A program made the position numbers and the translations under genes. From the IMG/VR virus record IMGVR_UViG_3300032217_000553, positions 1 through 28,036 of that record: a stretch of 28,036 nt of DNA. One strand, written 5' to 3'. A model generated the notes under the pieces. That model was not told where the DNA came from. It was given only the letters and a program-made list of their open reading frames with translations, and searched no databases. Numbering within the stretch: the first letter of the stretch is position 1; every line of letters begins with the position of its first letter. This DNA comes from a virus. This document shows positions 2,337 through 7,007 of this stretch, piece by piece.

Positions 2337-2496
2337 CTTTACCCCAACCCTTACCTTTGAAACTAACAGCCGGCACAGACATAACACGCACCTTTTCAGC
2401 CCCACAATGACACACAATACGAGGCGTTAAAGCAAGACTATGCGTGATTGTGGCTTTGGAACCACACACAGGGCATTTATAGTCATACACGGGCAT
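2323..2496 (-). CDS. FmdB-like zinc-ribbon protein
   Basis: This is a 57-residue protein beginning MPVYDYKCPVCG, the hallmark of the FmdB putative regulatory zinc-ribbon family. A second knuckle, VCHCG, lies at about residues 29-32, giving a CxxC...CxC metal site. The C-terminal half (VMSVPAVSFKGKGWGKD) also matches the family style. FmdB-like proteins are common small ORFs in actinobacteria and phages, with no settled function. The ATG at 2494-2496 follows a strong GGAGG, so the start is secure. It overlaps the upstream zinc-protein gene by 14 bases and the downstream small gene by 14 bases. Confidence 0.85.
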   Translation of the reverse strand: MPVYDYKCPVCGSKATITHSLALTPRIVCHCGAEKVRVMSVPAVSFKGKGWGKDAQQ

Positions 2497-2860
2497 TAAC
2501 ATCCTCCAAAGCTTGCAGAATCCTCAACGAACCTTCCATAGTCCATTTCACAGGTTTAGGTGGTTTCTTTTTACGGTTGCGAACAATCTTTATCGGGGTA
2601 TCAGATTGAATATGTGACACACGCACACAATCTTTATGGCCACACAACCGCACCCCAGGCAAATAAAGTTTGCCCACAGAAGTTATCGGGTTGTCATCAT
2701 CATCATGTTTGCCATACCACGCAACACAATAATCTTCACCATAACCAATACGGCTTTGAGGTTTAGCAGCACACGAAGCACACAACTGTTCACCTGTGCG
2801 TTGAACACGTTTGATTATTGCTGATCCGTTTTCTTGAATCCCACAGCGATTACATATCAT
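2483..2860 (-). CDS. Zinc-finger / half-HNH-like protein (paralogue 1)
   Basis: This 125-residue protein has CxxC at residues 3-6, CASC at 27-30, and then a YGEDYC...PGVRLCGHKDCVRVSHI block with Cys45, Cys73, His75, Cys78 and His83. The block resembles the second half of zinc-bound HNH/His-Me nucleases (pattern C-x-H-x-x-C-x(4)-H), but the usual first half with the catalytic His is not obvious, so nuclease activity is uncertain. A second copy lies at 6738-7007. The C-terminal 35 residues are very basic (RNRKKKPPKPVK) and suggest nucleic-acid binding. I use the ATG at 2860 with AAAGGGA upstream; the longer open frame to 2956 is the tRNA-like element read as protein. Confidence 0.8.
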   Translation of the reverse strand: MICNRCGIQENGSAIIKRVQRTGEQLCASCAAKPQSRIGYGEDYCVAWYGKHDDDDNPITSVGKLYLPGVRLCGHKDCVRVSHIQSDTPIKIVRNRKKKPPKPVKWTMEGSLRILQALEDVNARV

Positions 2861-2880: not shown

Positions 2881-2954
2881 TGGAGCTGCTGGGAATCGAA
2901 CCCAGGTGCAACGAGGCATTTCTGTTTACCCGTTGACGAAACCATAACAACCCC
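2881..2954 (-). ncRNA. tRNA-like RNA resembling the tmRNA tRNA-like domain
   Basis: Read on the minus strand, the 74 nt start GGGGTTG (2954-2948) and end CAGCTCC plus discriminator A (2887-2881). These form a 7-bp acceptor with G3-U70 and U5-G68 wobbles. A perfect 5-bp T stem CTGGG/CCCAG closes the loop TTCGATT. No 5-bp stem with a 7-nt loop containing U33 can be formed, so there is no normal anticodon arm. Instead, a stemless segment with GGTTTCG, as in tmRNA, is followed by a 7-bp stem (CAACGGG with CC-T-CGTTG, one bulge) and a 12-nt loop. G3-U70 with A73 is the alanine identity set used by tRNA-Ala and tmRNA. CCA is not encoded (CTC follows). It lies 20 nt before the zinc-protein ATG. Alternatives are an attP derived from ssrA, or a decayed tRNA. 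Confidence 0.6.
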
Positions 2955-2999
2955 AAGCACCAACAACCGGTCTAAAGTTATTGGCTATTCAGTTATAAA

Positions 3000-3028
3000 C
3001 CTGCCCTCACACCAAGATATTGGGCAGG
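3000..3028 (-). terminator. Putative intrinsic terminator after the phosphoesterase gene
   Basis: On the minus strand CCTGCCC (3028-3022) pairs perfectly with GGGCAGG (3006-3000) across a 15-nt loop and is followed by TTTAT. It sits 17 bases past the stop of the phosphoesterase gene. The U-tract is short and the loop long, so efficiency may be modest. It would separate the upstream operon from the tRNA-like RNA and the genes after it. Confidence 0.5.
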
Positions 3029-3045: not shown

Positions 3046-4197
3046 CTAAAAACGCCAGACTGTGCCGCTAAAAACTGTGTTTCTTTGCAACTCAAAACAA
3101 CTTATGCCCGTGCCTGAGTCACTGCCCGAAGTGAGCCGATACCAGTCTGAACCATTATCGGAGGTGCTTGCTTGAATCCACCAACGAGAGCCGCCGTTAT
3201 GCGCTCGCCCAAGCTCCTCAACCCGACTGTGATGAAAATGCCCACTCACCGCAATAGTGAAATCTTTGATGGCCTGATTACCGAAAGCCTGTTTACTCAA
3301 CCAACCTTCAACCTGATTAGGGCTTTTAGCTTGATGACCATGAAATAACCCAAGAATGTGAAACGTGTCCCCAAATGGATCAAGGGTTAGTGATTCGTCA
3401 TGTAGTTGAGGCATAACAAAAGTCACATCTGTTTTTGTTTCAACTGCCAGCCGTCTAAGTTGTTGCGCAATAACAACACCCCAATCATCAATACCAGGGC
3501 GACCAACTGCTTGACGGTTCACACGCCACTGACAATGATTAGAACCCACCGTTGCATAGGTGACCGGTGCGTATTTCGCACATAATTTCAACAAATCCCA
3601 CATCAGCGAGGCAGCCAAATCGACTTGTTGCATAGGACTCATCGTGTTCGATTCAAGCTGTGCAGTCGAGGCCACATTCTCAATGCCTTCAATAATGTCC
3701 CCAGCATCAAGCACCACGGCGCGCTCATACTTGCCACGTTTCAGTTGCGCTTCAATGTTGTCAAATGAAACAAAAATACGTTCTAACAATTCTTGTGTTC
3801 CCCCACGACTAGCAGACTTACCAACCTGCCAATCCGCCGGAACAATAACCAAGACTTTACTCGACTCGACAGGTTTAGGTTTTTTAGCTTCTTTTCTTGC
3901 CTGCGACCACAAAAAAGGCAAATCAACAGCCAGATTCTTGAGGCGAAAAGTGAACCTAAACGACGTGAGCCATTCACCATCCTCACGTTGCTGCCACTTA
4001 GACGTTTTGACCGTGTTCCCAACAACTTCATAAACGTCAGGATCATAACCAGCAGACCGCAAAAACTCATCAAAGTTAGGTTCACTGTATAAGCCAGGTG
4101 TTGTTGCTTGACCTTCCCCCAACACTTCATCAAAGTTCACTTGAGGTTTCCAACCAGCAGGTGAAACAGGTGAAGCAGGTTTCAAATCATCTAGCAC
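3046..4197 (-). CDS. Calcineurin-like metallophosphoesterase
   Basis: This 383-residue protein has the ordered metal ligands of the calcineurin-like phosphoesterase fold: ADWQVGK (D122), DAGDIIEG (D164 and D167), GSNHCQW (N220, H221), LFHGHQ (H286, H288) and SGHFHHSR (H320, H322). The first motif is D-x-Q rather than the common D-x-H. The N-terminal 110 residues precede the catalytic domain and contain two similar NFDE segments; they may bind a partner or DNA. Phage relatives are usually called phosphoesterases or nucleases acting in DNA metabolism; the substrate is unknown. The start is GTG at 4195-4197 with AAGGAA upstream, overlapping the HTH gene by 11 bases. Confidence 0.85.
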   Translation of the reverse strand: MLDDLKPASPVSPAGWKPQVNFDEVLGEGQATTPGLYSEPNFDEFLRSAGYDPDVYEVVGNTVKTSKWQQREDGEWLTSFRFTFRLKNLAVDLPFLWSQARKEAKKPKPVESSKVLVIVPADWQVGKSASRGGTQELLERIFVSFDNIEAQLKRGKYERAVVLDAGDIIEGIENVASTAQLESNTMSPMQQVDLAASLMWDLLKLCAKYAPVTYATVGSNHCQWRVNRQAVGRPGIDDWGVVIAQQLRRLAVETKTDVTFVMPQLHDESLTLDPFGDTFHILGLFHGHQAKSPNQVEGWLSKQAFGNQAIKDFTIAVSGHFHHSRVEELGRAHNGGSRWWIQASTSDNGSDWYRLTSGSDSGTGISCFELQRNTVFSGTVWRF

Positions 4198-5113: not shown

Positions 5114-5337
5114 TGTTTCTCCCTTAATGTTGCAGCTACCTGATCATTGACTAATGCCAGGATGACTTCTTGTGCGTCTGTGAAACCTAAATCAAGGCCG
5201 TAACGTAAACGTGCTTCTTCAAGTTCTTGCAGTCTAAACAAGACTTCTTTGATGATTCGTGTTTCACCTTGTCTGCGATAAAACTCACGCACGTTTTCAC
5301 CAGGTGTTGGTTCTTGAATAAATCCGAGGTCACTCAT
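5110..5337 (-). CDS. Small hypothetical protein, possible diverged family member
   Basis: This protein has 75 residues from the ATG at 5335-5337, overlapping the preceding TGA, with a G-rich site (GGGGG) upstream. It contains GETRIIKEVLFRLQELEEARLR, a strongly charged amphipathic helix, and later AQEVILALVNDQ. Helix and C-terminal motif are in the same order as in its neighbours but less alike, so it may be a diverged member of the same family. A TTG at 5349 would add four residues. The function is unknown. Confidence 0.7.
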   Translation of the reverse strand: MSDLGFIQEPTPGENVREFYRRQGETRIIKEVLFRLQELEEARLRYGLDLGFTDAQEVILALVNDQVAATLREKQ

Positions 5338-5624
5338 TTCAACCCCCAAACAATCGCCCTACGCCCAAACAAAGTAAAGTCTGAACCCTTTTCCTCAACC
5401 AAACCCAAATCAACAAGCTCAGACCGGCGAGAACGAATACCCGACTGCGAAGCCAAAGGCACTAAACCATGCTCCATCTGTGTTTGATACAACTGTGTCA
5501 ATAACTCATCAGTCATCGGCCTCCAAAGGATATTCAGAATAGCCTGTTGAGTTTTGGTGACATTTTGCACACTCTCAGCAGCCTCATGTGACGTTTGTGG
5601 ATCAGTTACACGAGCGTTAGGCAT
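5334..5624 (-). CDS. Winged-helix DNA-binding protein
   Basis: This 96-residue protein begins MPNARVTDPQTSHEAAESV, a start typical of small phage winged-helix proteins. It continues with TKTQQAILNIL, then MTDELLTQLY, then SGIRSRRSELVDLGLVEE, which read as the three helices with the recognition helix at IRSRRSELVDLG. The wing is VEEKGSDFTLFGRRAIVW. A regulatory or replication-support role is inferred from the fold. The ATG at 5622-5624 overlaps the preceding TAA by one base. Confidence 0.75.
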   Translation of the reverse strand: MPNARVTDPQTSHEAAESVQNVTKTQQAILNILWRPMTDELLTQLYQTQMEHGLVPLASQSGIRSRRSELVDLGLVEEKGSDFTLFGRRAIVWGLK

Positions 5625-5776
5625 TATGCACGCCCAATCTTCACTAAAGCCACAATCAAGGCGACCAGCAACGACCAGATAGCGAGCGGCCCAAACCAAG
5701 GCGAAACAACACCCGCAATCAAATCAATGCCCAGGTATAAACCAAAAAATATGATTGCACCCAAAACAACTTTCAT
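5624..5776 (-). CDS. Small two-pass membrane protein
   Basis: This 50-residue protein has two hydrophobic stretches, VVLGAIIFFGLYLGIDLIAG and FGPLAIWSLLVALIVALV, separated by a short VVSPW turn and ending in a basic KIGRA. The ATG at 5774-5776 follows AAAGGGAAA. It lies just after a 96-nt spacer containing two hairpins. It could be a superinfection-exclusion or membrane-modifying protein, but nothing in the sequence decides that. Confidence 0.6.
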   Translation of the reverse strand: MKVVLGAIIFFGLYLGIDLIAGVVSPWFGPLAIWSLLVALIVALVKIGRA

Positions 5777-6737: not shown

Positions 6738-7007
6738 CTATTGCCAAGGTATGACATGGGTGGGAGTCACACAATCGGAATGACCGCAAGTTCGTTTGCC
6801 AGGCATAAAATAATCTTCATTTATCATTGGTTGATCTTGTTCGTTGAAAGCTCCGTGCCAAGGTGTGCAACGTTCAGTGCCGTAAGTGATGATGTTGGCT
6901 CGGCGTTGACGACACGACGCACACAACAGGTTTGTGAGTTTGCGTTTGTTTTGGGCCACACACCAGGTGAACCCACAGCGAGCGCATTTGACTTTGTTCT
7001 CCAACAC
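6738..7007 (-). CDS. Zinc-finger / half-HNH-like protein (paralogue 2)
   Basis: This 89-residue protein has the same cysteine-histidine plan as the product of 2483-2860: CxxC at 8-11, CASC at 29-32, YGTERCTPWHG with Cys47, and PGKRTCGHSDCVTPTHV with Cys74, His76, Cys79 and His84. Unlike its paralogue it lacks the basic tail. The C-terminal block looks like the second half of an HNH zinc-bound nuclease. It starts with GTG at 7005-7007, ten bases after the preceding stop, with no clear ribosome site. Metal binding is likely; catalysis is unproven. Confidence 0.75.
   Translation of the reverse strand: MLENKVKCARCGFTWCVAQNKRKLTNLLCASCRQRRANIITYGTERCTPWHGAFNEQDQPMINEDYFMPGKRTCGHSDCVTPTHVIPWQ

Follow-up and report, generated by a model that had tools for sequence, protein, structure and literature searches.

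A phage-encoded tmRNA reduced to its tRNA-like domain, and its relatives in environmental phages

A 74-nt element on the minus strand of a 28,036-bp IMG/VR virus contig (analysed over its whole length and referred to below as the window) resembles the tRNA-like domain (TLD) of a tmRNA standing by itself. This raises the question of whether it is an RNA gene in its own right and, if so, what it does for the phage. Our literature search found a single published phage TLD-only RNA, that of mycobacteriophage DS6A, listed as 'TLD only' (tmID 11587; Hudson, Lau & Williams 2014, PMC4131195, where Mao et al. 2009 is cited for this phage). A DS6A-like molecule, chargeable or not, is described as strongly inhibiting tmRNA, perhaps via titration of SmpB (PMC4131195; repeated in PMC11915505). 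The TLD serves as a binding site for AlaRS, EF-Tu and SmpB, the last of which stands in for the anticodon arm (PMC3929946).

A tRNA-like domain without the remainder of tmRNA

Positions 2881-2954 of the minus strand comprise a 73-nt tmRNA TLD plus A73 (Table 1). Read from 2954 to 2881, the segments are GGGGTTG TTAT GGTTTCG T CAACGGG TAAACAGAAATGC CTCGTTG CAC CTGGG TTCGATT CCCAG CAGCTCC A. The Rfam tmRNA model RF00023 matches 2878-2954 with 57.3 bits (gathering score 47, E 3.5e-20), and in this match 77 bases cover model positions 1-374, the entire mRNA-like domain being deleted. Taken alone the match is weak evidence, since RF00023 also scores tRNA-sized places in actinobacterial genomes at 35-48 bits, one of them exceeding the gathering score, and short full-span matches therefore need a second test. 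For this we used a family model, R2, whose seeds exclude the window; it was made in place of model R1, which has the window among its 25 seeds and whose score is therefore unused as independent evidence. In an R2 search of the window the TLD is the sole match (65.9 bits, E about 6e-14). Both models thus bear out the first-pass annotation of this DNA, which had recognized both halves of a tmRNA-like TLD together with its stemless D region.

Table 1. Features of the element and its surroundings in the window
Feature	Position	Strand	Evidence or remark
TLD-only tmRNA-like RNA	2881..2954	-	RF00023 57.3 bits; model R2 65.9 bits
Acceptor stem, 5' strand GGGGTTG, G3 at 2952	2948..2954	-	pairs 7/7 with 2882-2888
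Stemless D region GGTTTCG	2937..2943	-	motif common to the family and actinobacterial tmRNA 5' ends
P2 stem, 5' strand CAACGGG	2929..2935	-	paired to 2909-2915; in the family alignment 8/8 pairs of this helix co-vary
P2 loop TAAACAGAAATGC	2916..2928	-	family alignments; shortened form of family cap AAARCCRCANGYGGA
P2 stem, 3' strand CTCGTTG	2909..2915	-	pairs with CAACGGG
T arm CTGGG-TTCGATT-CCCAG	2889..2905	-	direct reading; T stem covariation
Acceptor stem, 3' strand CAGCTCC (U70), and A73	2881..2888	-	direct reading
Phosphoesterase-like protein gene, 383 aa, upstream of TLD	3046..4197	-	protein-similarity search
7-bp inverted repeat, 3028-3022 / 3006-3000, loop 15	3000..3028	-	direct reading; between phosphoesterase stop and TLD
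Zinc-finger protein gene	2483..2860	-	ATG 20 nt past TLD

The acceptor stem (GGGGTTG/CAGCTCC) is paired in all seven positions, G3-U70 included, and the T stem in all five around the loop TTCGATT, as originally described; the linker TTAT follows the acceptor and CAC precedes the T arm. The alanine identity signal, G3-U70 plus A73, can be read directly in the window, and C74 alone of the CCA end is encoded, C75 and A76 being absent from the DNA. A further stem had been drawn as 7 bp with one bulge. Its seven pairs hold, but the bulge does not, as CAACGGG/CTCGTTG is better read as a bulge-free P2 helix with one G-U pair. For the window copy RNAfold prefers another structure (minimum energy -27.3 kcal/mol) to the TLD fold (-21.3 kcal/mol); for relatives such as L287 it returns the TLD fold, as expected.

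In the window 13 nt alone lie between the P2 strands, and the 74-nt element has neither an mRNA-like domain (resume codon and tag frame included) nor pseudoknots PK1-PK4; the earlier reading that these parts are missing agrees with their deletion in the RF00023 match. The lack of an anticodon arm is likewise corroborated: ARAGORN calls neither a tRNA nor a tmRNA on the element, Rfam tRNA gives no match at the gathering threshold, and these searches found no cloverleaf with a D stem and a 5-bp/7-nt anticodon arm in the window. Compared with full tmRNA (RF00023, including phage one-piece and permuted forms), the element has in common the acceptor and T arms, the GGTTTCGA D region, the start of P2 and G3-U70/A73, whereas the phage RNA lacks the mRNA-like domain, resume codon, tag frame and pseudoknots, and its P2 ends in a short loop or hairpin.

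A co-varying family associated with viruses

Our first scan of IMG/VR used a pattern in which the two TLD halves flank 20-50 unconstrained bases, and gave 117 loci, nearly all with a TLD-only architecture of ~75-80 nt. The 70 unique sequences parsed from it carry G1-C72, G2-C71, G3-U70 and A73 without exception, although acceptor conservation in this set is partly selected because the pattern imposed a GGGG start. That bias is removed by a second scan, in which the acceptor stem was left free, and by the protein-selected set described below. The second scan gave at least 120 loci and, among the matches listed, includes 36 of the 77 eligible loci of the first set (roughly half). G3-U70 is present in 98 of 101 unique structures among the matches listed in this free-acceptor scan, and acceptor pairs 4-69 to 7-66 of the same structures take many forms. 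At the encoded 3' end C74 is found nearly always and a full CCA in 20 of 119 loci.

P2 was no part of the search pattern; its sequence differs widely across the first-scan members, with pairing kept. In 25 aligned members all eight P2 pairs have changed on both sides and 91.5% of cells are paired. The whole-structure covariation score of these members is 0.661, against 0.134 when shuffled; sliding the structure by 1-3 columns brings it to about 0.1 or below.

As a sample selected on protein rather than RNA, we fetched 80 phages solely by similarity to the phosphoesterase gene (window 3046-4197), and 26 of them carry a TLD. The 16 distinct sequences obtained in this way, the window and Pontimonas phage phiPsal1 counted, have a covariation score of 0.787 vs 0.251 shuffled, and compensatory changes occur in 15 of 20 base pairs. 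All 16 retain G3-U70 and A73, with acceptor pairs 4-7 variable, which extends to relatives the alanine signal first read in the window. The acceptor, P2 and T stems thus co-vary strongly, and we conclude that the window element is a real, conserved RNA gene. A diverged TLD in L257 (about 5176-5237) has its acceptor, with G3-U70, its P2 and its T stem intact, and a T loop that reads TGCAACT, not TTCGANT.

Where a tmRNA would run into its mRNA-like domain, most family members have AAAR-CCR-CANG-YGG-A, an A-rich bulge followed by a 3-bp hairpin with the loop CACG, CATGT or CAAG. A hairpin of at least 3 bp is possible in 73 of 84 loops, compared with about 42 in shuffled loops. The window cap is degenerate, with a shortened loop and a CA/TG hairpin of 2 bp at most; Streptomyces phages Riptide and Naboo have retained the cap despite diverged D regions. 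In 22 actinobacterial tmRNAs the region near the 5' end showed no such cap. In a minimal subset (L162, L203, L214) P2 is closed by GCAA or a similarly short loop, L162 being only 62 nt long. A hidden tag is not supported, as a mini reading frame begun at the GCA of the cap lacks an in-frame stop in the members read by eye. The engineered TLD of SmpB crystal structures, with its UUCG-capped P2 (PMC3929946), is hairpin-closed as in the phage RNAs; that molecule is man-made, whereas phage caps are mostly AAA-CCR-CANG-YGG and in a few cases plain GCAA.

A similar pattern run against 84,980 bacterial and archaeal species gave 22 matches, of which four were upheld as TLD-only elements (L131, L134, L137, L139). 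L133 was dropped as part of a complete tmRNA, and most other matches in these genomes (L119-L140) are tRNAs or chance. With 117 viral loci against four upheld in 84,980 species, the TLD-only element is strongly virus-associated. A full TLD-only element (L368, 5001-5079, 68.4 bits) is also found on NZ_CP053567, a 27-kb plasmid of Pseudonocardia broussonetiae that carries an integrase gene as well and may be a phage-plasmid.

Genomic setting in relatives and named phages

The window element is located between a phosphoesterase-like and a zinc-finger protein gene. The ATG of the latter (2483..2860, minus strand) lies 20 nt past the element, a spacing already given in the first-pass annotation. 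Upstream, the 7-bp inverted repeat proposed there as a candidate terminator is present, but a terminator scan gives it (3000..3028, minus strand) no score. The proposal that the element starts a transcription unit is not borne out: no promoter-like site was found near the TLD on the minus strand, and in relatives the RNA directly follows a stop codon. In 25 of the 26 TLD-bearing phosphoesterase relatives (L291 is the exception) the TLD starts 3 to about 65 nt behind the phosphoesterase gene, and in most relatives a stop codon precedes it by 3-9 nt, which suggests that the RNA is cut out of a longer transcript. Strand bias among the neighboring ORFs is only weakly informative owing to noisy ORF calling. 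In the window the motif TAACTGAATA (2965-2998, minus strand) precedes the TLD, but L258, L261, L265 and L267 have it immediately downstream. The window also encodes two similar zinc-finger proteins with a CGHxDCV motif (2483-2860 and 6738-7007, minus strand), which are probably duplicates.

The remaining 54 of the 80 phosphoesterase relatives have no TLD in the fetched stretch, indicating an accessory gene. The closest named relative of the window is phiPsal1 (31,069 bp), whose terminase is 56% identical to that of the window and in which a phosphodiesterase-like 'repair endonuclease' is annotated (cf. window 3046..4197). This phage is known solely as a culture-derived sequence and is described as a lytic phage for which nothing indicates integration (PMC6106888). 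Its TLD (L150), unannotated, is at 5569-5647 between the prohead protease and major capsid genes, and a further relative (G083/L364) has a TLD at the same site. Two different TLD sites in related phages, together with absence in others, again suggest an accessory gene, retained or re-acquired.

A blastn search of phages with a 701-nt region of the window gave no match, and short-query blastn returned mostly tRNA or tmRNA 3' ends. Unannotated TLDs are present in the Streptomyces phages pSt2308 (L141), Alone3 (L142), BRock (L143), LuckySocke (L151) and Riptide (L153) and in Stenotrophomonas phage Jojan60 (L145). Those of the named Streptomyces phages are mostly in gaps of tRNA clusters, and the BRock copy is inside a tRNA cluster; BRock is virulent and without lysogeny genes (PMC7453282). 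The TLD of Streptomyces phage Naboo, from an unannotated record, scores 49.5 bits, and in GiJojo a BLAST match over the full query lies under a gene called hypothetical protein. Matches in Gordonia GMA2, Streptomyces Wakanda, Enterococcus EfsSzw-1, Pseudomonas PaMx31, Stenotrophomonas QDWS359 and Sphingomonas and Sinorhizobium plasmids were not counted, being full tmRNA, tRNA, chance or unclear. Longer TLD variants occur directly 5' of tRNA genes in Microbacterium phage Skylord (L144, 2938-3027) and in Quenya (L147, 1439-1527); both have the acceptor GGGCCTG/CAGGTCC, which retains G3-U70, and a larger P2 region that carries a hairpin of its own. In Mycobacterium phage Nibb a TLD-like element with G3-U70 (L146, 1454-1523) is followed, at a distance of about 90 bp, by a tyrosine integrase gene; the element may be a TLD used as attP, or else an attP located in the end of a tRNA or tmRNA.

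Proposed function and competing explanations

The phage RNA retains the parts recognized by AlaRS, EF-Tu and SmpB, and everything that tagging requires is gone. We therefore favor, with moderate confidence, a functional phage RNA gene encoding a TLD-reduced, alanine-charged tmRNA, a rival of the host tmRNA in binding SmpB, AlaRS and EF-Tu; such an RNA probably interferes with or re-routes host ribosome rescue. The decoy role put forward in the first-pass annotation is thus the most plausible mechanism at present, and DS6A provides one precedent for it in the literature. Of this explanation the structure, conservation, synteny and alanine signal are direct observations. P2 is closed by a short loop in place of the mRNA-like domain. 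In the proposed mechanism, the RNA would be excised at both ends from a phage transcript as a tRNA is, and a host enzyme would complete the CCA end. Host AlaRS would then charge the RNA with alanine through G3-U70, and SmpB and EF-Tu would bind the charged RNA as they do tmRNA. Competition with host tmRNA for SmpB, AlaRS, EF-Tu and stalled ribosomes would damp trans-translation, that is, the tagging and proteolysis of nascent proteins, during infection.

The strictness of G3-U70 suggests, from sequence conservation, selection on charging or at least on recognition by AlaRS, since plain titration of SmpB would not require this pair. Given that inhibition is reported to be independent of chargeability (Hudson et al.), pure SmpB titration would leave the strict G3-U70 unexplained. 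The pair thus speaks less for simple titration of SmpB than for engagement of AlaRS or an active part at the ribosome, through alanine transfer or untagged release.

A possible though not probable alternative is that the TLD, once charged, joins SmpB in stalled ribosomes and there extends the nascent chain with alanine in the absence of mRNA, so that this chain is freed or marked without the ssrA degradation tag, rather than SmpB merely being titrated. The retention of G3-U70 and A73 while the rest of the acceptor varies is as expected if charging matters, mRNA-free synthesis of polyalanine by TLD and SmpB in vitro is on record (Shimizu & Ueda 2006, as cited in PMC3929946), and mitochondrial tmRNAs without a tag frame are still conserved alongside SmpB (PMC11915505). 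However, common ancestry alone could partly hold G3-U70. We consider doubtful the broader proposal that phages widely encode a chargeable, message-less tmRNA which, with host SmpB, would convert trans-translation at stalled ribosomes to template-free alanine addition or untagged release and let phage proteins avoid ssrA-directed proteolysis, the recurrent P2 cap functionally replacing the mRNA-like domain.

The kept alanine identity, and the placement of some members within phage tRNA clusters, would also fit a bait for other readers of tRNA-Ala, acting by depletion of AlaRS or as a shield against a tRNA-targeting defence nuclease. This is unlikely, however, as the tmRNA-specific stemless D region and P2 are kept without an anticodon arm, and a decoy for AlaRS or a nuclease needs neither. 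The position 3-9 nt past a stop codon in most relatives could instead reflect a tRNA-like processing signal at which RNase P and tRNA 3' cleavage cut the operon transcript, with no role for the free RNA; yet RNase P requires neither G3-U70 nor the P2 cap, and the element occupies sites as unrelated as tRNA clusters, the gap ahead of the capsid gene and the 3' side of the phosphoesterase gene, making this explanation quite improbable. Finally, although ssrA is a common integration site and temperate Nibb has its TLD-like element close to an integrase gene, a copy of host ssrA acquired by an integrating ancestor, either as attP (raised earlier as a simpler reading) or as a relic, is very unlikely, since both TLD halves are present and co-vary, P2 included, members lie between genes in lytic phages, the site of the TLD differs among relatives, phiPsal1 and BRock are described as lytic and virulent, respectively, and no integrase was found in phiPsal1 or, in Pfam among the matches listed, among the 44 window proteins.

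The window RNA belongs to a barely documented kind, the TLD-only phage tmRNA. Like that of DS6A, it is a phage-borne tmRNA cut to little beyond the TLD, a likeness drawn from the description of DS6A alone; DS6A is a single reported case, whereas here many environmental phages are involved. The tag-less mitochondrial tmRNAs and the plastid forms of ~65 bp (PMC11915505; Jacob et al. 2004, as cited there) likewise have no tag frame, but an organellar tag-less tmRNA is the organelle's only tmRNA and the phage RNA is an addition to that of the host. New here are the family's breadth, the strictness of its alanine signal and the recurrent hairpin capping P2.

With these results the TLD-only phage tmRNA, previously reported for one phage, becomes a large co-varying family that spans many environmental phages. 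Its members have been overlooked by gene finders, which look for an anticodon or a tag frame. Named records with a TLD are tied to Streptomyces, Stenotrophomonas and Pontimonas, hosts being known for the named records alone. The family poses a testable question, namely whether a viral RNA mimic silences or re-routes ribosome rescue, and whether alanine is needed for this; the TLD RNAs of pSt2308, Alone3, BRock, LuckySocke, Riptide, Jojan60 and phiPsal1 are good laboratory test cases.
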